Assembly: GCA_039654915.1 (NCBI GenBank)
Contig: CM077600.1
Coordinates: 44,004,492 to 44,068,491 of the forward strand
Length of the DNA: 64,000 nucleotides
From: Aquilaria yunnanensis
Lineage: Eukaryota > Streptophyta > Magnoliopsida > Malvales > Thymelaeaceae
Direction: 5' to 3'
This document shows, in pieces, positions 1,893-64,000 of the stretch; position 1 is the first letter of the stretch; each line of letters starts with the position of its first letter. Below the pieces are notes generated by a model. The model had not been told where the DNA came from. It made no database searches and worked only from the letters and a program-made list of their open reading frames with translations. Made by a program: the position numbers and the translations under genes.

Positions 1893-2069
1893 TGTATTGA
1901 AGATAAATGTCAAGATATATCTTCCAAGAGATAGCTCATTATCTTGTATATATTATCCTACTTGTAGTTATCTCTAGTGTTTATCATGTATTACAAAACC
2001 TGTATATAAACCAATGAGAAAGTGCTTCGACCGTGTGCAACAACAAAACTCTGTTTTCAACTTCTTTCA
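1893..2069 (+). repeat. 5' LTR of the Copia element
   Basis: Starts TGTATTGAAG and ends CTTCTTTCA, directly before the primer-binding site. It repeats at 6260-6271 plus 7289-7436. A TATA-like stretch (CTGTATATAAACC) lies about 70 bp before its end and is a plausible promoter. Confidence 0.9.
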
Positions 2070-2084
2070 TGGTATCAGAGCCTC
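2070..2084 (+). other. Primer-binding site, initiator tRNA-Met type
   Basis: TGGTATCAGAGCCTC immediately follows the LTR end. This is the usual plant Copia primer site, complementary to the 3' end of initiator tRNA-Met. Confidence 0.9.
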
Positions 2085-2101
2085 TGCGACATACGTCAAC
2101 C

Positions 2102-4624
2102 ATGTCGTCTCTCAATCTCTCAACGACTTCTTCCCCTTCCCTCTCTTCTTTCTCTGGACCACCATTGTTGCCCACTCCACCATTGAACCTTGGACATCTT
2201 ATCAACATCCGGCTTAACAGAGATAACTATCTACTCTGGAAAGCTCAGTTTCTTCCCTATCTTAGAGGCCAACGCCTCCTTAGCTACGTTGATGGTACCA
2301 CTGAGTGCCCGCCAAAAATGATTGCCAGTGAGGCATCTTCTCAGGAAGCGAACACAGATTCACTCGAAGTAGCTGAAGCAAGCCAGATTCCAAATCCGGC
2401 TTATCAAATCTGGTTTCAGCAGGACCAGATGGTTCTGAGCGCGATCCTTTCGTCCTTATCAGAAGAGATCCTAGCTCATGTCATCAACATAACAACTTCA
2501 CGAGAGGTCTGGGTGACTATTGAAAGAATGTTCGCATCTCACTCTCATGCTAGAATTATGCAAATTCGACTTCAGCTATCTACCCTGCAAAAGAAAGACC
2601 TCTCCATCACCGAATACTTCAATCGAGTGAAAGGGCTAGCTGACACTCTCTCTGCAGTTGGACAACCACTCCAAGACTTTGAAATTGTCTCCTATCTTCT
2701 GGCAGGTTTAAACTCTGAGTATGATCCTCTGGTGACATCCGTTACAACAAGAATTGACCCTATGCCTCTAAACGATCTCTGTGGTCATCTTTTGAGCTAC
2801 GAACTTCGATTGGAACAACATAATGCTGTGGCACAGACTTCCTCGTCAGCAAATGTTGCTAATACTGTGGTCCAGACTTCCTCGTCAGCAAATGTTGCAA
2901 CTCGCAACAATAATTCAAACAGAGGCGGCAGAGGTCCAAACACCAGAGGAAGAGGACGCGGGCGTGGAAGAACCAGCTCGCCTAACTACAAAGGGAACAA
3001 CTCTACAAACAACAACAATGGGGCTCGAGTTGTGTGCCAGGTCTGTCAAAAACCAGGCCATGCTGCTGCTATTTGTTTTCATCGATTTGATCATTCCTTC
3101 CAAGGAGACTTTAATCGTGTTGCTGCAGTAGCATCAACTCCTTCCTATCAGTTAGATCCAAACTGGTATACAGATAGTGGAGCAAATGTTCACATCACCA
3201 ACGACCTCAACAATCTTACCATCAGTGAAAAATATGGTGGTGCCGATCAGGTGCAAGTAGGTAATAGAGTAGGTTTGTCTTTTAAACATATTGGTCAATC
3301 TCACATCAAAACCCCTCAATCCTCCTTATCCTTGACTAATGTTCTTCATGTTCCTCAAATTAGCAAAAACTTAATCTCTGTTAGCAAGCTTACCCATGAT
3401 AATGACGTTTTCATAGAATTTCACCCTAATTGTTTTCTTGTTAAGGATCGATCTACGAAGAAAAGTATCCTGCAAGGGGAATGTAGGAACGGACTCTACC
3501 TTCTCCCTCCAGCCGACACTACCTCTTCTTCTTGTCAGGCTTTAGTTGGTGAACGTGTAGACATTGACCAGTGGCACAAACGTCTTGGCCATCCTTCCTC
3601 ATCAGTTGTTGCAAGAATCATTCATCAAAATAACCTTCCTTGTCGAAAGGGTAACACTCCATTCGTGTGTAATGCCTGCCAACAAGGCAAGAGCCATCAG
3701 CTACCATTTCATAATTCTAGCTATGTTTCTAAGACTCCCTTAGACCTTGTCTTTTCTAATGTTTGGGGACCTGCTCCCCTTTCAGTTAATGGCTTTCGGT
3801 ATTATGTCAGTTTCATTGACAACTTCAGTAAGTTTGTGTGGATTTATCCTATATCTCTTAAATTTGAAGTTTACAATGTCTTTCTTCAATGGCAAGCACA
3901 CGTAGAACGATTACTTGAAAGAAAAGTTAAAAGGGTTCAGACAGATTGGGGTGGTGAGTATCACAAACTAAACACTTTCCTTTCCTCCATTGGTATTGAA
4001 CATCGTGTCTCTTGCCCTCACACTCACCAACAAAATGGTTATGCAGAACGAAAACACAGACATTTAGTGGAAATGGGCATGACTCTTCTTGCTCAAGCAT
4101 CTATGCCATTAAAATTCTGGGATGAAGCCTTTCGATCTGCTTGTTACTTGATCAATAGATTACCTAGCCCAGTCATACAGAATATGTGTCCCATACAACG
4201 TCTTTTTCACATCAAACCTGACTATTCCTTTATAAAAGTATTTGGATGTGCTTGCTGGCCATACCTTCGTCCCTATAACTCAATTAAACTTGAGTTTCGA
4301 TCTAAGCAATGTGCCTTCATTGGTTATAGTGGTAAACATAAGGGATACAAATGCCTACATGTGCCTACTGGTCGTGTCTACATTTCACGTAACGTAGTTT
4401 TTGATGAGAATATGTTTCCGTTCTCACAAGTTTCTCATACAGGACCAAAACCAGACGTGATCAGTCCAGCCCCTATCTCTCTCCCTCTTGCTGTACAGAC
4501 AACACCATCTCAGACAGCACCAGCCATCCCTGAAACATTGAACCCATCTGAGTCAATACTTACCACCAATAGTGTTTCAATGGATTCTGCTCCAGAATCG
4601 CTGCACCGGTTGTTCATCCCATGA
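2102..4624 (+). pseudogene. Copia Gag-protease-integrase, part 1 of a frameshifted polyprotein
   Basis: ATG at 2102 opens a frame of about 840 codons. In order it shows a UBN2-type Gag (RDNYLLWKAQF), a Gly/Arg-rich stretch, a CCHC zinc knuckle (CQVCQKPGHAAAIC), the protease site (WYTDSGAN), the pre-integrase zinc region (WHKRLGHP, CNACQQGKSH) and the integrase core. The integrase triad is incomplete. The residue before VWGP, normally the first Asp, is Asn (AAT at 3758-3760). The second Asp (TDWGGEY, 3944) and the Glu (GYAERKHRH, 4046) are present. The frame ends at TGA 4622-4624, although the next frame continues the protein, so a one-base indel lies near 4600-4612. Integrase function is inferred lost. 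Confidence 0.92.
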
Positions 4625-6024
4625 AAACACGGCTTCAAAACAACATCAGAAAACCCAAACGTTTTATTGACGGAACTATTGCATATCTGTCCACATTTGC
4701 TGCAGGTGAAAACGCTGAGCCTGATTCCTATGAAACAGCTGCTAAGTATCAACCATGGAGGCATGCAATGAACATTGAGTATGAAGCTCTCTTGAAGAAT
4801 CATACATGGACACTTGTTCCACCAAGGAAAGACATAAATTTGATTGATTGCAAGTGGGTGTTCAAGTTAAAAAAAGGGGCCGATGGCACCATTGAAAGAC
4901 ATAAAGCGAGACTCATTGCGAAGGGTTTTAAACAACAGTATGGTATGGACTACCATGATACCTACAGCCCGGTAGTAAAACCTGCCACAATTCGCATCAT
5001 TATCTCATTAGCAGTTTCGAAAGGATGGGATATACGACAAATCGACGTGCAAAATGCATTCTTGCACGGGCATTTACATGAAGCAGTATACATGAAGCAG
5101 CCCCCAGGCTACACTAATCCAAAGTATCCAAATTATGTTTGTAAACTAAACAAGGCCTTATATGGCCTGAAACAGGCGCCCTGGGCATGGTATTCTCGCC
5201 TAAGCTCGAAGCTGTTGGAACTTGGTTTTGTTCCCTCGAAAGCAGATACATCCTTTTTTATACTCAAGAATGATGGTGTTACAATATATTTCTTGATCTA
5301 CGTTGATGATATTCTCATTACAGGATCTTCTACAGTTGCTGTAAATGGCCTGCTCCATTCACTGCGAGAAGATTTTGCAATAAAAGACTTGGGAACGCTA
5401 AGCTACTTTCTTGGCATCGAAGTCATTCATGATCCACATGGTGTGATCCTCTCCCAACAGAAGTACATTCTTGAGTTACTAGCTCGAACCAACATGCTTG
5501 AGGCGAAACCAGTCTCCACTCCCATGTCCACTGGCGAGAAGCTATCCAAAACTGCAGGAAATCCTCTCAGCGATGCTACCAAGTACAGGAGTACTATCGG
5601 AGCACTCCAATATGTTACACTCACACGGCCGGACATTTCTTATGCCGTAAAAAAAGTCTTCCAGTACATGCATTCTCCTACTGAGTTACATTGGTCTGCT
5701 GTTAAACGCATCCTTCGATACTTAAAGAGCACAGTCTCGCTTGGTATACGGATTTGGAGGTCAAAATCCAATCTTCTTAGCGCATTCTCAAATGCAGACT
5801 GGGCTGGCTGTGCAGATGACTGGAGATCAACAAGTGGCTATGCCATTTTCTTGGGAGAAAATTTGATATCTTGGAGTTCTCGAAAGCAGCCCACTGTTTC
5901 TCGTTCAAGCACGGAAGCTGAATACAGATCATTAGCAAACTCTACAGCTGAACTGATATGGATTCAAATCACTTCTATCCGAGCCTGGAGTTTACTTACA
6001 TCGATCACCTGTTCTCTGGTGTGA
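4621..6024 (+). pseudogene. Copia reverse transcriptase-RNase H, part 2
   Basis: This continues the polyprotein in another frame; the ATG at 4621 is a chance overlap with the preceding stop. The RT contains [19 protein letters not shown], the catalytic YVDD (5299-5310) and [14 protein letters not shown]. The RNase H region contains [20 protein letters not shown] and [11 protein letters not shown]. The residue expected to be the first RNase H aspartate (in D-A-D-W-A-G) is Asn (AAT at 5791-5793). A second frameshift, one extra A near 5965-5968, moves the C-terminus out of frame, so this frame ends at TGA 6022-6024. Confidence 0.92.
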
Positions 6025-36990: not shown

Positions 36991-37062
36991 CCCAGTGATA
37001 CAAAGGTTAGTGTTAACATTCCGGCCCTTGCCTCAGCTATAGTAGATGGAAAATATGATCCT

Positions 37063-37670
37063 ATGAAGATAAGGGAAGCCATTTGTTATTGGGTGTTGAT
37101 GCATGAGCATCCATTCTCAGTTGTAGATAAGGAAGTGTTTAACTTTATGATGAAAGTTGTAATCCCCCAATTTGAAAAAATTGCCCGTGCTACTTTGAAA
37201 AGTGATTGCATGAAGATATATGAGCTTGAAAAGAAAAAGGTGAAGGTCATGCTAAGGAAAACTTCAAAAATTAGTTTGACAACAGACTTATGGAAGTCAA
37301 AGAACCAAAAAATCGGGTACATGGCTATCACTACCCATTTTGTTGAATTTGAATGGAAGTTGAATAAATGGATATTGAATTTTGTTTATATTCCTCCTCC
37401 TCATACAGGTGATGCCATTTCAGATGGAAATTTCAAGTGTTTGAAGGAGTGGGCCATTGAGAACAAAGTTGATACTATTTTAGTTGATAATGCTTCAGCA
37501 AATGATTCTGCCATAAAAAATTTGAAGGAAATTTTTTAGAAGTGAATAAGAAGTTGTTGTGTGGTGGGAAATTGTTTCATGTGCGGTGTTGCGCACATAT
37601 TCTGAATCTAATTGTCCAAGATGGTTTGGCCGAGATAAAATTTGTCATTCAAGATGTGAGTGATATCTGA
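37063..37670 (+). pseudogene. hAT transposase catalytic region, frameshifted
   Basis: ISLTTDLWKSKNQKIGYMAI carries the family's D in 'TTDLW'. TILVDNASANDSAI matches the 'VDNASANDxA' region. After a stop at 37537-37539 another frame gives FHVRCCAHILNLIVQDGL, the hAT 'CCAHxLNLI' block, then stops near 37670. Sequence up to 39100 has no further recognisable transposase. Confidence 0.85.
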
Positions 37671-54800: not shown

Positions 54801-55200
54801 CACAAATCATAAACACCACCAAAAAAGTGATTAAAACCATAAACAAGCGATAAAAATAAAATAAAATAGATAAAACAAAAAAAAGTGATGTAAATTAAAA
54901 AAAAACAAGAAAGCAAAAAAAAAAAGTGATAAACACAAATTAAAAGTGATAGCCTCCAGCTGCAAATCACAACAATCGATCAGGGCTTTAATATGGGGTC
55001 CTCAATATAAACTACAAATTTAGTTGTTTAAATTAGGGGGTCTGTTGTTTAAAAAAAAGTGACAATATATATACAAATGTGACAATATGACGTAAAAGAT
55101 GTTGAAAAAAAATAAATGCGACAAAAGGATCATAAAGGCAAAGGGTAATTTTGTAAAAATTACGTAGAAGCCATTTTATGCTAAAATAATTGATTATTAG

Positions 55201-58200
55201 TGTGGCAACGTCGGGTTTTCGGGAGTCGCCACCAATCTGTTTACCTAGGTCGATTGGACACCTTAAAATTGGTCTGCGAGAGTTCGGGGATCGGGAGTAC
55301 GGTTACGCTAAAACAACTTTGTTATAGCGCCCAAAATTGGCACCATAGTTGATTTTAATTTTATTTTGCTTTGCTTTTAGAAAATATTCAGTTAATTTTC
55401 AAACTAGAAATTTTAACTGAATTAATCGGATGTGGATTTTTAAATTAATTTATATAAAATTTGATACTTCCGAACCATGGACTCTGCCGAGTCATTTGGA
55501 CACGGAAGATTTAATTCCGAACCATGGACTCTGCCGAGTCACCCAGACACGGAATTTGATGAAATTTTAAATAAATTAATCCATATCGTAAATATGGATT
55601 TTTATCTTTGTATTTATTTAATTTAATTAAAAAGTAGATGTTTTCCAAACCGTAGATCCTGACGGATCATCCGGATATGGAAATTATGTTAAAAAGGTGA
55701 GCAAAAAAATAATTATTTAATCAATATTTCATTTATTTAATAATGAAACCAAAAATTTATGTATATTTCAAAAAAAATAAAAAGAAAAGTCTTAATACTT
55801 TATTTGATAAAAGGTGAACAAAAAAAAATAATTATTTAATCAAAGTTTTATTTAATAAAGGAAACAAAAATTGATATGTATATTTCAAAAATAAAAGAAA
55901 AGTTTTAATATTTTATTTGTTTTATTTTGTTTTAATGAAAGATTAACCAAAAGTAATTATTTAATTAAGAAACCAAAAATTTATATGCATATTTTAAAAA
56001 TAAATAAAAGTTTTTGATATTTATATATTTTATTTTTTTTGAGTTCTTTTTTATTGATAAATTTTTTTTCTAATTTATAAGTCTAAAAATACATCTAATT
56101 AATAAGTCTAAAATATTTAAAAAAATTTAATTCTTTTTTTCTTGTTTATTTTTATTACCTTTATTTGAAATTATTTGGGTAAAATTTTATTTTGTTTAAT
56201 AAAGGAAACAAAAAGTTATATCTTTTTATTATTTTGAAAGAAATAAGTAAAATATTACTGGATAAAGAGATAAGTAAAATATTAGTCCAAAGTTTTTTAT
56301 TATTTTTATTCTTTTTAATAATAAAGAAACTAAAAAGTTATATTTTTATTATTTTAAAAGAAATAAATAAAATATCGATGGGTAAAGAAATAAGTAAAAT
56401 ATTAGCCCAAAGTTTTTTTATTCTTTTATTATTTTTAAATAATAAAGAAACTTTATTTATATATTTTATTTAAAAAAATATTTTAAATTATTTAAAAAAA
56501 AAATTTATATACTTTATTTTTAAAAAATATTTTTCAAGCCATAGATCCTGGCGGATCATTTGGACATGGAATTTAATTTTTATTAAATTTTATTTTTTAA
56601 TTATTTAATTAATTATTAATTTTAATCATAATTTTTATTATTATTTTTTCTTTATTTTTTTTTAAATATCATTAATTTTAAATATATGTTTAAAAAGAAT
56701 TGATTTGTATATTTTTGGAATTATTTAATTATGTTTATTTATTAATTTTTACAAAAGGAATAAAAAGTTAACTTTTTGTTATCTTTAAAGAAATAATAAA
56801 AGAAACATGTATTCCAAAAATAATAAAAGATAATTGTTTTTTTTTTTAAAAATGATTTTTATTAGCCTTAATAATTATTCACATGAAATTCTTTTTGTTT
56901 TGTTTTTATTTTTTATTAAAAGTGGAATAAATTTAACCAAAAAAAAATAATTAATAATAACAAAGTGGGGCTTTTTGGCCATCCACTTTAATAACACAAT
57001 AATAATAACAACAATAATAAAAGTTAACAAAGTTAGTAAAGTTAGATGTTAATAACAATAAAAATAAAAGTTAGTAATGTTAGTTGAGTTAATTGTTAAC
57101 AATAATAACAACAATAATAATAAATGTTAGCAAAGTTAGTAAGTTAGTTGTTAGTAACAATAAAAATAAAAGTTAGTAATGTTAGTTGAGTTAATTGTTA
57201 ACAATAATAACAACAATAATAATAAAAGTTAGCAAAGTTAGTAAGTTAGTTGTTAGTAACAATAAAAATAAAATAAAAATAAAAGTTAGTAAAGTTAGAT
57301 TAGCTGTTAATAACAACAATAAAAAAAGGTTAGTAATAATAACAATAATAAATAAATAAATAAACAAGTAAAAATTAAAAGAGTTGATAATTAATTCTGT
57401 AAGATCAAAATAAAAGGTTAGTGACCAAAGTGAAAGAAATTGAAAAGATGAAGGATTAAATGAGAGTTTACCCTTTTGAAAACAAATTTTGAATTCTGTT
57501 GTCACATAACGACGCGGAACGCGGGGGGAAAAAAAAACAACGGTGAACAAGGCTGGACACGGCGGCAAAGGCGTGGCGGCGAGGCGGCGTGGGGCGGCGG
57601 GGCAAAGGGCGGAGGGGTGACGGCGACGTGGGACGGCGGGAGCGGTGAGATCGACGGCGGCGGCAAAAGCAAAGAAACGTGGAGCGGTTGCATCGGCGAT
57701 GGGGAGCAACGGCGACGGCGGAAAGAGCGACGGCGACTGCGGGGGAGCGACCGATGGCCGCGTGACGGCGACGGCGGGCGTGGCTAGGCCGGACGACGGC
57801 GGCAGAGGAGAGAAAAAAAACGGTGAACTGAGAAAGTGAGAGAAAACCGAAATATTGGGGACGGGGGTTAAAACGTGAAAACAGAAAAGTTTTGGTCTTC
57901 TGGGAAGAGGGAGGAGAGGCTAGGAACTAAGGCTGTGATTTTCCCTTTTTTTTAAACGGAGCTCTAAGCTTTCTCTCTATTTTTTTTCTGTGTTCAGCAC
58001 TAAATTTGGAGGCCTATTTATAGAGGAAGTTTGGCTGAACTGTTGATGGATAAATTAATAAAAAATTTCAAACTTATCTTTTAAATTGGTAAAATGACAA
58101 TTTCAGTCCTTTACGTTTCTCACGCTCTGGATAAGCTTCAGAAGCTTCTGATTTTGACAATTTTGTCGTTTTCTGTTAATTTGGGCCAGAAACGTCCGTT

Positions 58201-58523
58201 TAGGCCCAAAATTGACGCAAAAAATTGCCCAAAGCTCCTGGAACTTTCAGAATTTGTCAATTTTGCCCGAAACTTCTCAATTTTATCATTTTTATCTCAA
58301 ACTTTTTAATTTTGTCATTTTTATGGAGTTTTCTTTTTTTCTTTCAAACATACACATATACACACATATATCAAATCTTCACAAAACAAAACAAAAAATG
58401 TATTTTAAATTAATTAAAAAAATTTTAGTAATAATAATAACAATAATAATAATAATACATTTTTTTTAATTAATTTTTTTTATTTAATTTTTTTTAATGG
58501 CCGGACGAAATTGGGTGTCAACA
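55201..58523 (+). repeat. 5' LTR of the Ty3/Tat-type element
   Basis: Same ends as the 1,012-bp solo LTR at 6272-7283, with about 2.2 kb of extra AT-rich and repeat sequence (55335-57480). A GC-rich CGG block lies at 57510-57800 and a promoter-like TATTTATAGAGG at 58013. Several frames in the GC-rich block are low-complexity artefacts. 56960-57380 repeats 'GTTAGTAAAGTTAG / AATAACAATAATAA' units of about 65-70 bp. Confidence 0.85.
55462..56575 (+). repeat. Four dispersed ~40-bp 'accatggactctgccgagtc' motifs
   Basis: Versions of CCGAACCATGGACTCTGCCG followed by AGTCA...GACACGGAA lie at about 55467, 55518, 55642 and 56535. The later two read CCRTAGATCCTGRCGGATCA. They are GC-rich islands in AT-rich sequence and are absent from the short solo LTR. 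Confidence 0.8.
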
Positions 58524-58599
58524 GCTGCCCCCCTTTGCATGCTTCATGGGACATGATGTATGCAAAGTCGTTATCAAATTTCGTCCGGCTTAGCTAGGC

Positions 58600-59740
58600 A
58601 TTGAGAACCTTCTCGCCACCTAAATTGTAAGGTTAAGGAATCCTCCTTAGAACCTCGGCGATAGGAGGAGTCCTACCGTTGAAAGAAAATTGATTGTTTT
58701 CGAGGCAAAGGTTCCATCCTTAAAACCCCGATGATAGGAGCAGTCCTACCGTTGAATGAAAATTGATTAATTTCGAGGCAAATGTTCCATCCTTAAAACC
58801 TCGACGATAGGAGCAGTCCTACCGTTGAAGGAAAATTGATTGAATGAAAATTGATTGATTTCGAGGCAAAGGTTCCATCCTTAAAACCCCGACGATAGGA
58901 GCAGTCCTACCGTTGAAGGAAAATTGATTGTTTTCGAGGCAAAGGTTCCATCCTTAAAACCCCAGCGGTAGGAGCAATCCTACCGTTGATTGATTTCGAG
59001 GCAAAGGTTCCATCCTTAAAACCTCGGAGATAGGAGCAGTCCTACCGTTGAAGGAAAATTGATTGTTTTCGAGGCAAAGGTTCCGTCCTTAAAACCCCGA
59101 CGATAGGAGCAGTCCTACCGTTGATTGTTTTCGAGACAAAGGTTCCATCCTTAAAATCTCGACGATGAAAATTGATTGTTTTCGAGGCAAAGGTTCCATC
59201 CTTAAAACCCCGATGATAGGAGCAGTCCTACCGTTGATTGTTTTCGAGACAAATGTTCCATCCTTAAAATCCCGACGATAGCAGCAGTCCTACCGTTGAT
59301 TGTTTTCGAGACAAAGGTTTCATCCTTAAAATCCCGACGATGAAAATTGATTATTTTCAAGGCAAAGGTTCCATCCTTAAAACCCCGATGATGAAAATTG
59401 ATTGTTTTCGAGGCAAAGGTTCCATCATTAAAACCCCGATGATGAAAATTGATTCTTTTCGAGGCAAAGGTTCCATCCTTAAAACCCCGATGATGAAGAT
59501 TGATTGTTTTCGAGGCAAAGGTTCCATCCTTAAAACCCCGATGATGAAGATTGATTGTTTTCGAGGCAAAGGTTCCATCCTTAAAACCCCAATGATGAAG
59601 ATTGATTGTTTTCGAGGCAAAGGTTCCATCCTTAAAACCCCGATTGATTGTTTTCGAGGTAAAGGTTCCATCCTTAAAACCCCGATGATGAAAATTGATT
59701 TTGAGGCTAAGGAGCTTTCCTTAGGACCTCGAGCGAAATT
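58600..59740 (+). repeat. Leader tandem-repeat array
   Basis: About 17 units built on 'TTTTCGAGGCAAAGGTTCCA' + 'TCCTTAAAACCCCGA'. Units up to about 59320 are long (roughly 60-87 bp) and mostly include 'GATAGGAGCAGTCCTACCGT', whose core TAGGAGCAGTCCTA is a near-palindrome. Units from about 59330 are short (~54 bp, 18 codons) and lack it. Because 54 is a multiple of three, both strands stay open and produce spurious repetitive frames of 135 (+) and 179 (-) codons. Confidence 0.88.
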
Positions 59741-60245: not shown

Positions 60246-60875
60246 TTATGGGAGTGAACTGGTCGGGAAAGACTGTCGTGTCCAGTCTATCTGGATCATC
60301 GCTGGATCTGGTTCAGGAACAAAAGCTTGCATTTTATCTAGCAATTCTTCAGCAGTTGTTGCGGATATTATGATTCGTCGTGCTACTCTTGATATGAAAT
60401 TCTTCTGCATAGCATAATCCACAAAAGCTATCAGACCTGTAAAGAAATTGTTAACATTCAACAGCCCAATGGGTTTCTTATGCAAATTAAGTTGGGCCAT
60501 GGAAGCAATTTGAAAGACTTCTCCCAATGTGCCAAAACCACCTGGTAGAGCGATAAAAGCATCAGCATTTAAAAGCATTTGTAACACACGCTCTTGCAAA
60601 TTTTTAACCACTAATTCTTCTCCAATCGTGCCCCCAGAAACAAATTTCAAAGGTCCAGGGATGATGCCCAAAACTTGACTTCCTCCTAAAGATGCTGCTG
60701 ATGCTACACCTCCCATTAATCCGACACTACCTCCTCCATAAACTAAATGCATTTTTCGCTCAGCTAATACTCTACCCAAATGGTTGGCTGCCTTTAAATA
60801 CTCTCCATCTTTTCCAGGAAAAGCCCTAGAAAATACACAAATACTTCAGGATTTACGAGTTGGGGTTTTCTCCAT
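60246..60875 (-). pseudogene. LOG-like cytokinin riboside 5'-monophosphate phosphoribohydrolase, intronless, early stop
   Basis: 210 codons from the ATG at 60875, with an in-frame TGA at codon 10 (60846-60848). The LOG fold continues in the same frame right after the stop (SICVFSRAFPGKDG), then HLVYGGGSVGLMGGV, the substrate Arg in LQERVLQML, and the catalytic PGGFGTLGE (PGGxGTxxE is complete). The 177-codon part from Met 60779 lacks the first strand of the fold. LOG enzymes release active cytokinin bases from their nucleotides. Plant LOG genes normally have several introns and this has none, which suggests capture through RNA. TATTTATA at 60908-60915 is a minus-strand TATA box unusually close to the ATG. 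It lies antisense inside a Ty3 leader. Whether the 177-residue form is made is unknown. Confidence 0.85.
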
Positions 60876-60907
60876 TCCTATCCTTATCCTTGTGAGAAAA
60901 GAGGATA

Positions 60908-60915
60908 TATTTATA
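60908..60915 (-). promoter_or_regulatory. TATA box of the LOG-like frame
   Basis: TATAAATA on the minus strand, 33-40 bp before the ATG at 60875. Transcription would start almost at that ATG, so initiation could fall to a later Met. Confidence 0.5.
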
Positions 60916-60969
60916 GAGATAAAGAGATAAGGCAATAATTTTATTTTTCAAGAATGGATACATTATTGC

Positions 60970-61260
60970 CAGCTATTCACAGTAGTCACGGGTATGACTC
61001 TGGTCAGGTATGGGTACACTATCGTTAAAAGATGAGGAAATTTTTCAAAATAGCTGCTAGCATGTACAGTAGTCACTACTGTAGCTTACGTCAGGGGTAG
61101 GTATGTGATTGTTGGAAGAGAAGGAAAATTTTAAAAGTGGTAGCTATATACAGTAGTCATAACTGTATCTCATGTCAGGAGTGGGTACATTATTGGGAGG
61201 ATAATTTCAAAAGCGACAGCTAGCATGTACAGTAATCATGACTTTGGTCCACGTCTTCCA
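60970..61260. repeat. 'TGTACAGTAGTCA' repeats upstream of LOG, downstream of the Cys4 copies
   Basis: Four diverged units with 'CAGCTAGCATGTACAGTARTC', 'GTCAGGRGTGGGTAC' and 'TTATTG' at about 60975, 61050, 61140 and 61217. One further unit lies in the 3' flank of each of the other two Cys4 copies (61992, 62830). They are probably remnants of the unit that was triplicated with the Cys4 frames. Confidence 0.75.
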
Positions 61261-61294
61261 CTGATTTTGCATCCAGTAACGGCTTCAATGCCTT

Positions 61295-61843
61295 CTATGA
61301 ATCGGCGATTTGCATCCCATCCAGTTTTCTCACAAACTGGCAAACTGGGTCGTTTAAAGTCAGATTCCCAAGACTATAACGATCTCGTTCTTTTTGGAGA
61401 ATTATCAATAATCCAACAATCTCAAATTGCACTATTCCGCAAGAATGCGCTTCAAGAACCTCTCGAATATCTTCTAGAGATTCCTTACGCAAGCCATTCT
61501 TAATGAATCTTATTCTATCACTACGATTTCTGGTGATCACTCCTGGAGAACGACATTTATTGCCGCAAATCCACCATCCACAATTATGACAAACGCCTAG
61601 CCTCTTTGCTCTTCTTTTTTTGGCATAAGCGCTTTTACCAAAGCCGGGCATACGGGGAAAGAACGCTTCTGGAACTTCACCAGCTGAACGAACCTTAGCT
61701 TCGATTAGCCACCGCACATTATCAGGAATGCCTTTGTGCATAAATACTCTGAATCGTTCACATCTAGCTTAATAAATCTTTTTAAGAACATTTATTGGGA
61801 AGGAAGGAAAATACTTTCGTAGGGCGGAAAGAGAAGACTCCAT
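61295..61843 (-). pseudogene. Cys4 basic protein, copy 1, early stop
   Basis: 183 codons, colinear with copies 2 and 3, but with TAA at codon 25 (61769-61771). Downstream it is open to the end from a Met at 61741 (148 residues). The Cys4 cluster CHNCGWWICGNKC and the basic AYAKKRRAKRLG are kept. One otherwise conserved Arg beside the second Cys is Trp. If translation restarts at 61741 the Cys4 part would still be made. The N-terminal 35 residues, shared by the other copies, would be missing. Confidence 0.8.
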
Positions 61844-62067
61844 TGATGAAGGAGGTATTTAAGAGAAGAAAGAAATTAGTGATTGTAGGAAACGGAAATA
61901 ACTAACACATATTTATGGTGATGAAAGGGATAATGCGTTAATTACACTTACAGAAGCAAGTACATTATTGTCAAAAGAAAATACAAATGACAGCTTATAT
62001 GTACAGGAATCATGACCTTGGCTCTCATCTTCCACTGATTTATGTCCAGTAATGGCTTCAATGCCTT

Positions 62068-62616
62068 CTATAAGTCGGAGATTTGCTTCCCATCCAGTTT
62101 TCTTACAAATTGACAAACAGGGTCGTTTAAAGTCACATTCCCAAGACTGTAACGGTTTCGTTCTTTATGGTAAGTCCTCCATAAACCGATAATTTCACCT
62201 TGCACTTTTCCACAAGAATGCGTTTCAAGAGTCTCTTGGATATCTTCCAGAGATTCCTTACGCAGGCCATTCTTAATGAATTTTCTTTTATCTTCACGAT
62301 TTATGGAGATGTATCCTAAAGAGCGACATTTAGTATTACAATTCCATCGCCCACATTTATAACACACGCCTAGTCTCTTTGCTCTTCGCCTTTTGGCATA
62401 ACGGCTTTTACCTAAACCGGGCATGCGGGGTATAAATGCATCTGGAACTTCACCCGCCAAACAGACCTTAGCTTCAATTATCCACTGCATATTATCGGGA
62501 ATGCCTTTGCGTGTAAAAACTCTGATTCTTTCACATCTAGCAAGGTAGATCTTTTTAAGGACTTTTATTGGAAGGGAAGGAAAGTATTTTCGCAGTGCAG
62601 AAATAGTAGAATCCAT
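62068..62616 (-). CDS. Cys4 basic protein, copy 2 (carlavirus CRP-like?)
   Basis: 182 residues from the ATG at 62616. In order: an N-terminal helix-like segment (STISALRKYFPSLPIKVLKK), a 'KGIPDNMQWIIEAKV' block, a basic stretch SRYAKRRRAKRLG, the Cys4 cluster C-x2-C-x4-C-x3-C (CYKCGRWNCNTKC, residues about 85-97), FIKNGLRKESL, then a C-terminal half with ETHSCG and NDPVCQFVRKLDG. The arrangement small-x-S-x-Tyr-Ala-basic-Arg-Arg-Ala followed by CxxC resembles the cysteine-rich nucleic-acid-binding proteins of carlaviruses, but the spacing of the last two Cys differs and the C-terminal half is extra. A TATAAAT (62737-62743, minus strand) lies about 120 bp upstream. It lies antisense to the Ty3 element. 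The function is not known; nucleic-acid binding is inferred. Confidence 0.75.
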   Translation of the reverse strand: MDSTISALRKYFPSLPIKVLKKIYLARCERIRVFTRKGIPDNMQWIIEAKVCLAGEVPDAFIPRMPGLGKSRYAKRRRAKRLGVCYKCGRWNCNTKCRSLGYISINREDKRKFIKNGLRKESLEDIQETLETHSCGKVQGEIIGLWRTYHKERNRYSLGNVTLNDPVCQFVRKLDGKQISDL

Positions 62617-62736
62617 TGATGAGAGAAGAATTTGAGAGAAGAGGGAAATGAATCAGTTATTGTAGGAGACTGGAATAACCGACTTTAGAAGTCACGGGGT
62701 ATCTTATCCGCTGCTTAATCAGAAGGAAGAACACGC

Positions 62737-62743
62737 ATTTATA
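62737..62743 (-). promoter_or_regulatory. TATA box of Cys4 copy 2
   Basis: TATAAAT in 'TCATCACTATAAATGCGTG' on the minus strand. Copy 1 has a similar 'CACCATAAATATGTG' at about 61907-61920. Confidence 0.45.
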
Positions 62744-62905
62744 GTGATGAAAAGGGATAACGTGTCGATTACACTTAGGGGAGCATGTACATCTGTCAAA
62801 AGAAAATGCAAACTTTTCCAAATATAACAAACTGTATGTACAGTAATTGTGACTGTGGCTCACATCTTCCACTGGCTTTACGTCCAGTAACGGCATTAAC
62901 GGCTT

Positions 62906-63454
62906 CTATGAGTCGAGGATTTGCTTCCCATCCAGTTTTCTTATAAGCTGGCAAACAGGGTCATTTACAGTCAGATTCCCGGGACTGTAACGGTTTCGTT
63001 CTTCATGAAAAATGCTCCATAAACCAAGAATTTCACGTTGCACAGATCCACAAGAATGCGTCTCAAGAGTCAATTGGATATCATCCAATGAGCCCTTACT
63101 CAAGCCATTCTTGATGAACCGTATTTTATCTTCTCGATTATTGGAGATCATTCCTAAAGAACGACACCTAGTCTTACAAGTCCACCTACCACATTTATGG
63201 CAGACTTGTAATCTTTTCGCTCTTCTTTTTCTAGCATAAGAACTTTTGCCAACACCAGGCATGTAAGACGCAAATGTCTCTGGGATTTCACCTGCCAGAC
63301 GAACCTTGGCTTCGATTAACCACCGTACATCTTCAGGTATTCCTTTGTGCATCAGAGCTCTTAATCGTTCACAGCGAACTCGGTAGATCTTTTTGAGGAT
63401 GTTCATTGGGAGAGAAGGGAAATACTTTCGCAAGGCGGAAAAAGTAGGATCCAT
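62906..63454 (-). CDS. Cys4 basic protein, copy 3
   Basis: 182 residues from the ATG at 63454, fully open. The layout is that of copy 2: FPSLPMNILKKIYRVRCERL, KGIPEDVRWLIEAKV, SSYARKRRAKRLQ, Cys4 cluster CHKCGRWTCKTRC (Cys 85, 88, 93, 97), FIKNGLSKGSLDD, ETHSCG and NDPVCQLIRKLDG. The three copies lie head to tail about 773 and 838 bp apart with similar flanks, so the unit triplicated locally. Exactly equal length (549 bp each) despite many substitutions suggests the frame was selected, at least until recently. Family resemblance to carlavirus cysteine-rich proteins is tentative, as for copy 2. Confidence 0.75.
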   Translation of the reverse strand: MDPTFSALRKYFPSLPMNILKKIYRVRCERLRALMHKGIPEDVRWLIEAKVRLAGEIPETFASYMPGVGKSSYARKRRAKRLQVCHKCGRWTCKTRCRSLGMISNNREDKIRFIKNGLSKGSLDDIQLTLETHSCGSVQREILGLWSIFHEERNRYSPGNLTVNDPVCQLIRKLDGKQILDS

Positions 63455-64000
63455 TTTCTAGGAGGAAGTAAAAGAAAGAAGGGGTGAAGGAATCAGTTAT
63501 TATGGGCAACTGAGAAAACCGACTTGAGAGTTACGGAGTACCGTATCCGCCGTTTAACCGGAAAAGTGGATCCTACTTTATTTTGGTATCATAGATATTT
63601 CTTATCTTTGATGTCTCATCAGGCATGACATTGATCCAGTCCTTGATTATTGAATCCATTGTCTGCTTTCGACGACAATATTTCTCGATATCCGCGTTTA
63701 TCTTTGACCATAGCTATTTCTTATCTTGGATACCGCTAAGCTGGCGTCAATTCTGTCCATCCAGGTGTAGCCTCGATTATTGAATCGATTGCCAGGCTTT
63801 TGACATATTGTCTACCTTATCCTTGAATTCCTGATGCGGGTTGGTCCCGCATATTAGCTGTGTATCCAGTGATAGATTGGTAAGAGCTGATGACATTGAG
63901 ATCTCAGCTTATACTGCTGAAACTGTGCCGTGGATGTGCTTCCCATTTGGTTCCTATTATGCAAAAGTCATGCATGTATGATGTGAAATGCATGAATGCA
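63455..64000. other. No gene seen; internal duplication
   Basis: 63460-63560 is the 5' flank of copy 3 and matches that of copy 2 ('GAATCAGTTATT...ACCGACTT...CCGTATCCGC'). 63589-63665 and 63709-63792 are diverged copies of one segment ('ATAG(A/C)TATTTCTTATCTT...GATTATTGAATC'). The element continues past the window end. Confidence 0.55.

Follow-up and report, generated by a model that had tools for sequence, protein, structure and literature searches.

Genes resembling viral nucleic-acid-binding proteins and LOG enzymes as cargo of a Tat-type retrotransposon in Aquilaria yunnanensis

Four minus-strand reading frames are clustered at 60246..63454 of a 64,000-nucleotide stretch of the Aquilaria yunnanensis genome (the window; contig CM077600.1, here C8, C8:44004492-44068491, of a genome totalling 842,125,765 bases). 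Do they belong to the retrotransposon whose long terminal repeat (LTR) lies beside them and, if so, what might they do for it? One frame resembles LOG enzymes, and the other three encode copies of a basic protein with four cysteines (Cys4), named here nucleic-acid-binding proteins NABP1, NABP2 and NABP3. An earlier note had placed the four frames as antisense cargo in the leader of a Ty3/Tat-type element. The frames are indeed retrotransposon cargo, although their orientation is the opposite of the one proposed. As to their role, we give a probability of about 0.5 to the reading that the cargo, which lies in sense before the 3' LTR of a Tat element, would form a counter-silencing and growth-promoting module.

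Anatomy and placement of the element

The repeat at 55201..58523 has further copies at C8:44073742-44076959 and C8:44087690-44090908. The pentamer ATTAG is found at both outer ends of this C8 structure, the right one just beyond the third LTR, whose outer end is C8:44090908, and the whole can therefore be described as LTR-internal-LTR-internal-LTR with a single target site duplication (TSD). The polypurine tract (PPT) adjoins the window LTR and the primer-binding site (PBS), TGGCGACTCCGCTGGGGA, adjoins the second LTR, both on the minus strand, and a gag gene of 680 aa (PF03732, 45.6 bits) is located on the same strand between the second LTR and the cargo. This arrangement identifies 55201..58523 as the 3' LTR of a minus-strand element, so that LOG and the NABPs are sense genes in front of it. 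The 5' LTR with an antisense leader, as read earlier, could not be maintained, since PBS, gag and, in a sister copy, pol are all on the strand of the cargo and upstream of it. Of the gag-pol expected beyond the window, this copy has gag only.

In the sense direction the order is 5' LTR, PBS, gag, 2.9 kb without recognised domain, NABP1, NABP2, NABP3, LOG, tandem repeats, PPT and 3' LTR. All the marks of an LTR retrotransposon (paired LTRs, TSD, PBS and PPT) are present, and two other copies of the family have the TSDs AGCTG and GGAAG. The two C8 units show no difference in gag, NABP1, NABP2 and LOG and are 99.5% identical in NABP3. From its anatomy it is near certain that the window copy is a minus-strand Ty3 LTR retrotransposon which has no pol and is tandemly duplicated. 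Between gag and NABP1 five open reading frames (ORFs) of at least 80 aa occur, none with a Pfam match, and a tRNA search of the window found none. The features are as follows (coordinates, strand, description).

55196..55200, no strand: left target site duplication ATTAG; the same pentamer follows the third LTR
55201..58523, minus: 3' LTR, in sense TGTTGACACC...CGTTGCCACA; recurs twice more on C8
58014..58022, minus: candidate LTR promoter TATA TATAAATAG, LTR sense position 502; a putative choice among the 11 TATA-like strings that the LTR contains
58524..58538, minus: polypurine tract GCAAAGGGGGGCAGC, adjoining the 3' LTR
58606..59700, no strand: tandem repeats of about 51, 62 and 73 bp, separating LOG from the PPT
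60246..60875, minus: LOG-like frame, cytokinin riboside 5'-monophosphate phosphoribohydrolase family, stop at codon 10
60910..60915, minus: TATAAA before LOG
61295..61843, minus: NABP3, stop at codon 25
61912..61917, minus: CATAAA before NABP3
62068..62616, minus: NABP2, 182 aa, open
62738..62743, minus: TATAAA before NABP2
62906..63454, minus: NABP1, 182 aa, open
63455..64000, minus: start of the 2.9-kb interval that separates NABP1 from gag
Beyond the window, in equivalent positions: gag 66365-68407; PBS about 69245; next LTR 69251-72468

The array that shares LTRs comprises two units at C8:44059692-44090908, its left part lying in the window from 55201. A further array of the same family, with at least 3 units of about 12,994 bp, starts at C5:95207171, and pairs of NABP2 matches 14-15 kb apart were seen at C2:9365931/9380635 and C5:95685632/95699893.

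The placement of the family comes from the pol-bearing sister copy (L018/L019, C4:51.78-51.80 Mb), where gag, RVT_1, RT_RNaseH, RVT_3, Integrase_H2C2 and rve are followed by NABP1-3 and LOG on one strand, with the reverse transcriptase (RT) domains and the integrase (INT) domains in separate frames. The order RT_RNaseH, RVT_3, Integrase_H2C2 at L018:4812-6899 corresponds to an additional RNase H between the RNase H (RH) and INT. Within Tat, the angiosperm subclades Ogre and Retand are marked by such an additional RNase H (PMC6317226, PMC10508981; here and below, papers with PMC numbers are cited for the available parts of their text). The Tat affiliation given earlier is thus supported for the family, the pol-less window copy being placed via its sister copy. 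The window copy matches L018 over gag (87.6%) and beside NABP1 (87.0%), with no match between, and tblastn with the L018 RT and integrase gave no match in the other loci of L001-L028, window element included. Across the genome, 64 of 64 scored RT matches, the best of 35,077 first-look candidates, are without stops. Transposase_28 (PF04195), which as an antisense ORF is a criterion for Retand, was absent from the selected ORFs scanned, and the cargo here is in sense. The gag frame of the sister copy (L018:816-4154) also contains a G-patch (35.6 bits, cut-off 22), and a frame upstream of it (L018:2-679) has a DUF7745 match of 23.2 bits, under the cut-off of 26.

Cargo genes, their linkage and their relatives

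Two findings had been named beforehand as speaking against cargo, namely family copies lacking the frames and a target duplication ending the element before 60246; neither was found. ATTAG lies outside the whole structure, and all 12 copies fetched by NABP2 similarity contain the three NABPs and LOG in the window order, with LOG cut by the locus end in two (L017 and L028, fetched only partly, are excluded from this count). When loci were fetched by LOG instead (L029-L042), a NABP was located upstream on the same strand in 14/14, two of these being the window element's own units. In three of the 14 the LOG has 77-84% identity and the NABP still adjoins it. Among the pol matches listed, 19/64 are followed at 5.5-8.8 kb by a LOG on the same strand, and none has it upstream or on the opposite strand within 12 kb. 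For the gag matches listed, LOG is nearby in 8/65 (1 upstream) and NABP2 in 7/65 (1 upstream), none on the opposite strand, while the NABP2 matches listed have LOG downstream in 7/112 and upstream in 3, all on the same strand. These fractions are low because only the best-scoring matches were listed for each query, and the upstream cases may be tandem neighbours.

It could be argued that the element inserted by chance beside ordinary host genes for NABP and LOG, or beside endogenous carlavirus fragments, as PF05515 and PF01623, which the NABPs match, are virus families and LOGs are host genes. We consider this extremely improbable, for the TSD encloses the cargo, the linkage holds in all fetched copies, and about 6 host LOG exon matches are distinct from the element type. 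These exons are 69-94% identical to At2g37210 over 48-52 residues (C-terminal query piece, whole genome); apart from them, the remaining 144 places in this search include one at 60% with a stop, the others being at 38-50%. Chance neighbours were rejected on the TSD and the linkage, and an endogenous carlavirus fragment was rejected as the recognised neighbours of NABP are gag, pol, LOG and LTR, i.e. retrotransposon genes. No other virus gene was recognised beside NABP among the ORFs of at least 120 aa listed in 19 intervals, of which selected ones were Pfam-scanned.

The NABP is a basic protein of 182 aa with four clustered cysteines at residues 85, 88, 93 and 97. All three window NABPs exceed both curated Pfam cut-offs, with 28.1-35.2 bits for Viral_NABP (PF05515, cut-off 23) and 22.4-28.0 bits for Carla_C4 (PF01623, cut-off 20.9). 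The three Cys4 basic copies reported before are thus borne out, and they are tandem paralogues with a DNA identity of 75-81%. This identity, together with the ratio of nonsynonymous to synonymous substitution (dN/dS) of 0.22-0.29 between them, marks the NABP frames as more than chance. For NABP, AlphaFold2 gave a mean predicted local distance difference test score (pLDDT) of 58.1 and a predicted template modelling score (pTM) of 0.29. Scans of IMG/VR with one NABP and with a 41-NABP alignment confirmed no relative, and a 19-sequence NABP core profile, aimed at short viral NABPs, returned none named as a virus among the 120 listed of 614.

The LOG-like enzyme of the earlier note was likewise recovered as an intronless gene, with 107.3 bits for PF03641 (cut-off 27) and with At2g37210 as its best PDB sequence match (E 5e-44). 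In the window copy the frame is open from 60845 to 60246; an in-frame ATG occurs at 60875, but a stop follows at codon 10. All four frames therefore exist as described, with the qualification that LOG and NABP3 carry early stops in this copy. The window LOG has PGGFGTLGE and an Arg, fitting the PGGxGTxxE motif and the Arg criterion of LOG enzymes. The Arg and Glu, which we take to be the catalytic residues, are kept in 114 and 118 of the 120 listed LOG matches, respectively.

TATA-like boxes had been assigned to each frame, and this was only partly upheld. TATAAA is present 40 nt before the LOG start position in 6/6 copies (one of the six without ATG there), upstream of NABP2 in 6/6 copies with sufficient upstream sequence (the seventh is ended by the locus edge), and at -66 before NABP3 in 6/7 copies, the window copy having CATAAA at -74. 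NABP1, in contrast, has an upstream TATAAA in 3/7 copies and the window copy is without one. The near-constant spacing before LOG, NABP2 and NABP3 would be compatible with separate transcription; shared descent would preserve the TATA equally.

Relatives of both proteins were found in several plants. NABP relatives number 259 at E<=0.001, those named among the 120 listed being from Rhamnella, Populus, Acer and Xanthoceras, and the core-profile search adds Parasponia; one protein from that search carries the name 'Viral nucleic acid binding'. In a Rhamnella gene model, P0102, NABP-like and LOG-like parts are fused; it aligns with NABP1 at 62% identity, covering 99% of the query, although its Pfam scan shows LOG families only. 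One NABP cluster and one LOG cluster have the same longest contig value (both 8723), and a second such pair has 4511, which hints at NABP-LOG linkage in other samples. LOG relatives amount to 7839 among 7999 scored candidates; many of the 120 listed are from Reevesia, and Paulownia, Orobanche, Diplodiscus, Populus, Melia, Parasponia and Xanthoceras are also represented. The listed LOG matches and the window LOG form one clade (119/125 tips, support 0.957) in a tree where two Arabidopsis LOGs were the sole plant outgroups with a name; since the 120 matches were chosen by similarity, this clade is partly a product of sampling. Four proteins named LOGL10 or cytokinin phosphoribohydrolase (P0177, P0202, P0205 and P0223) fall inside this element LOG clade and may be transposon copies.

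Elsewhere in the window, two long plus-strand frames at 2018-6024 appear by eye to be Ty1/copia gag-pol-like, and a plus-strand frame of 182 aa at 36991-37539 resembles by eye a piece of a hAT-type transposase.

Constraint on the cargo and its possible role

The first look across the genome gave 3646 candidates for LOG and 8774 for NABP2, most of which were not scored. Among the best scored, 150/150 LOG, 142/150 NABP2 and 39/65 gag matches are without stops, and 145/150 scored LOG matches lie in an open frame of at least 221 aa; the LOG query begins past the early stop of the window copy. The C8 LTRs differ by 0.16% substitutions per site between second and third, 1.03% between first and second and 1.15% between first and third. 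Other LTR pairs are 0.04-0.68% divergent, some of them being neighbours within one tandem array, and for C4:76.7 Mb the comparison covered the LTRs only in part. At the commonly used plant rate of 1.3e-8 substitutions per site and year, these divergences date the events within about half a million years. Judged from these counts and divergences, the element family is large, young and recently active.

In a first set of copies, chosen by likeness to the window NABP2 and with length-variant or duplicate copies excluded, dN/dS by counting is 0.17 for NABP1 (9 copies), 0.24 for NABP2 (9), 0.28 for NABP3 (7) and 0.12 for LOG (6), all counting estimates here being without confidence limits. The dS of NABP2 is low and biased as the copies were picked by NABP2 similarity. 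Out-of-frame controls were made for the second set, in which LOG (10 of 14 loci, excluding L030 as an identical unit, L039 and L042 with split matches, and L041) gave 0.25, its nine equal-length copies having 0.22 in frame versus 0.61 and 1.64 out of frame. The NABP beside LOG (11 of 14 loci, excluding L030, L036 and L042) gave 0.34, with 0.74 and 1.16 out of frame. One of the 10 LOG copies has a stop.

Low dN/dS could also arise if the cargo was captured once and amplified from few source elements, the ratio reflecting intact sources and no present benefit. The young amplification, with LTR pairs 0.04-1.15% divergent and many identical top scores, the frequent stops in sampled copies and the character of the dN/dS counts would all fit such a history. 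We nevertheless regard it as quite unlikely, for the NABP paralogues keep their low ratio at dS 0.53-0.90, LOG copies as low as 77% in protein identity retain the adjoining NABP, and both proteins have relatives in several plant families.

LOG enzymes release active cytokinin bases. Viral NABPs, also known as cysteine-rich proteins (CRPs), are described as RNA silencing suppressors, and that of chrysanthemum virus B in addition as a transcription factor causing hyperplasia (PMC12172455). Both activities point to permissive, dividing cells, and for this reason we prefer the counter-silencing and growth module. In such a scheme the pol-less form would borrow pol, and the NABP-LOG module would be retained as helpful to the element. 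The cargo might be expressed from its own TATA boxes, or via spliced or read-through LTR transcripts. The NABPs would act like their viral relatives, by RNA silencing suppression and/or transcriptional reprogramming, and the element LOG would release active cytokinin locally. The element would then be less silenced, and host cells would stay dividing or meristematic, where insertions become heritable. More tentatively, it is possible that a Tat lineage has kept a virus-type silencing suppressor or nuclear regulator and a cytokinin-activating enzyme across eudicots under purifying selection, to weaken silencing and hold cells dividing and germline-accessible, in a hormone action somewhat like that of gall formers; we are inclined to doubt so wide a claim.

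Several observations weigh against the preferred module. The likeness of NABP to viral proteins is modest and is one of profiles only, and some plant NABP relatives fall under one cut-off (P0019 and P0074, for one family). The Lys after the catalytic Arg is absent in 117/120 listed LOG matches, and the N-terminal ICVF motif reads SRAF in the window LOG versus CGSS in At2g37210; these two changes make the cytokinin specificity of the element LOG uncertain. The scored matches are the best-scoring ones and are biased towards intact copies. Stops occur in NABP1 3/9, NABP2 0/9, NABP3 2/7 and LOG 3/6 of the first set and in NABP 6/11 of the second, suggesting that single copies lose the cargo.

The missing Lys would permit a changed substrate, and reviews liken extra ORFs to retroviral accessory proteins (PMC7264820, PMC11963269). 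Both points suit the alternative that the cargo serves the element cycle only, the NABPs in RNA chaperoning, packaging or export and LOG on non-cytokinin nucleotides, host hormones and silencing being unaffected. This appears unlikely to us, given that the viral NABP relatives are described as silencing suppressors and that the LOG catalytic Arg and Glu are largely retained.

The module, if it acts as preferred here, matters because both cargo types have functionally studied relatives, in viral silencing suppression or nuclear regulation and in plant hormone activation, and because candidates occur in thousands in an 842-Mb genome, the best-scoring copies being young and open. It would offer a testable case of a transposon bearing anti-host and growth-regulating genes, and it is a warning that LOG annotations in plants may in some cases refer to transposon copies.

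Comparison with known systems

Whether this is a new kind of cargo has two answers. Steinbauerova et al. 2011 reportedly named two elements of Athila type that resemble LOGL4. Cargo of the LOG type has already been published for Ty3 elements: a YgdH (LOG-type) domain is listed in Ty3/gypsy consensus elements of Citrus and, when a less strict filter was used, of Populus trichocarpa (PMC9289625, which refers to Steinbauerova et al. 2011). No retrotransposon with a carlavirus-type NABP, on the other hand, was found in the open-licence PMC literature searched, including the available parts of PMC9289625, PMC11963269, PMC7264820, PMC6317226, PMC6338049 and PMC3136472, where an unlabelled earlier detection is possible. 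The Citrus and Populus elements resemble the window family as plant Ty3 elements with a LOG-type extra ORF; unlike here, no nucleic-acid-binding partner is named and no ORF position, orientation or order is given in the available text (PMC9289625). Orchid Gypsy elements carrying an ORF for an m6A demethylase of AlkB type likewise combine Ty3 with a recognisable enzyme ORF and are proposed to affect host control; their enzyme differs from LOG and its activity was shown in vitro (PMC9289625), whereas the window family is known from sequence.

For most extra ORFs of plant LTR retrotransposons, both origin and role are described as unknown, the antisense ones being noted without virus similarity in the available text (PMC7264820, PMC6317226). 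With the Tat groups Ogre and Retand (PMC6317226, PMC10508981) the family shares the 5-bp TSD, extra ORFs and, through its sister copy, the additional RNase H and a gag frame separate from that of RT-INT; the domains typical of their extra ORFs are the plant mobile domain (57%, Ogre) and Transposase_28 (23%, Retand), in place of which NABP and LOG are found here. Retand elements with antisense TRP28 ORFs are similar in that a long stretch with tandem repeats precedes the 3' LTR, extra ORFs occur and some families are non-autonomous (PMC11963269). In these Retand elements, however, ORFs with known domains are antisense and no sense ORF with a known domain is given in the available text (PMC11963269), whereas LOG and NABP of the window family are in sense.

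The cysteine-rich NABPs of carlaviruses, allexiviruses and mandariviruses share with the element proteins the PF05515/PF01623 similarity and a basic stretch followed by four cysteines (PMC12172455). The element NABPs differ from them in residing in a retrotransposon, in being present in three copies and in having long flanks around the Cys4 core. The cysteine spacing is probably longer in the viral NABPs than in the element NABPs.

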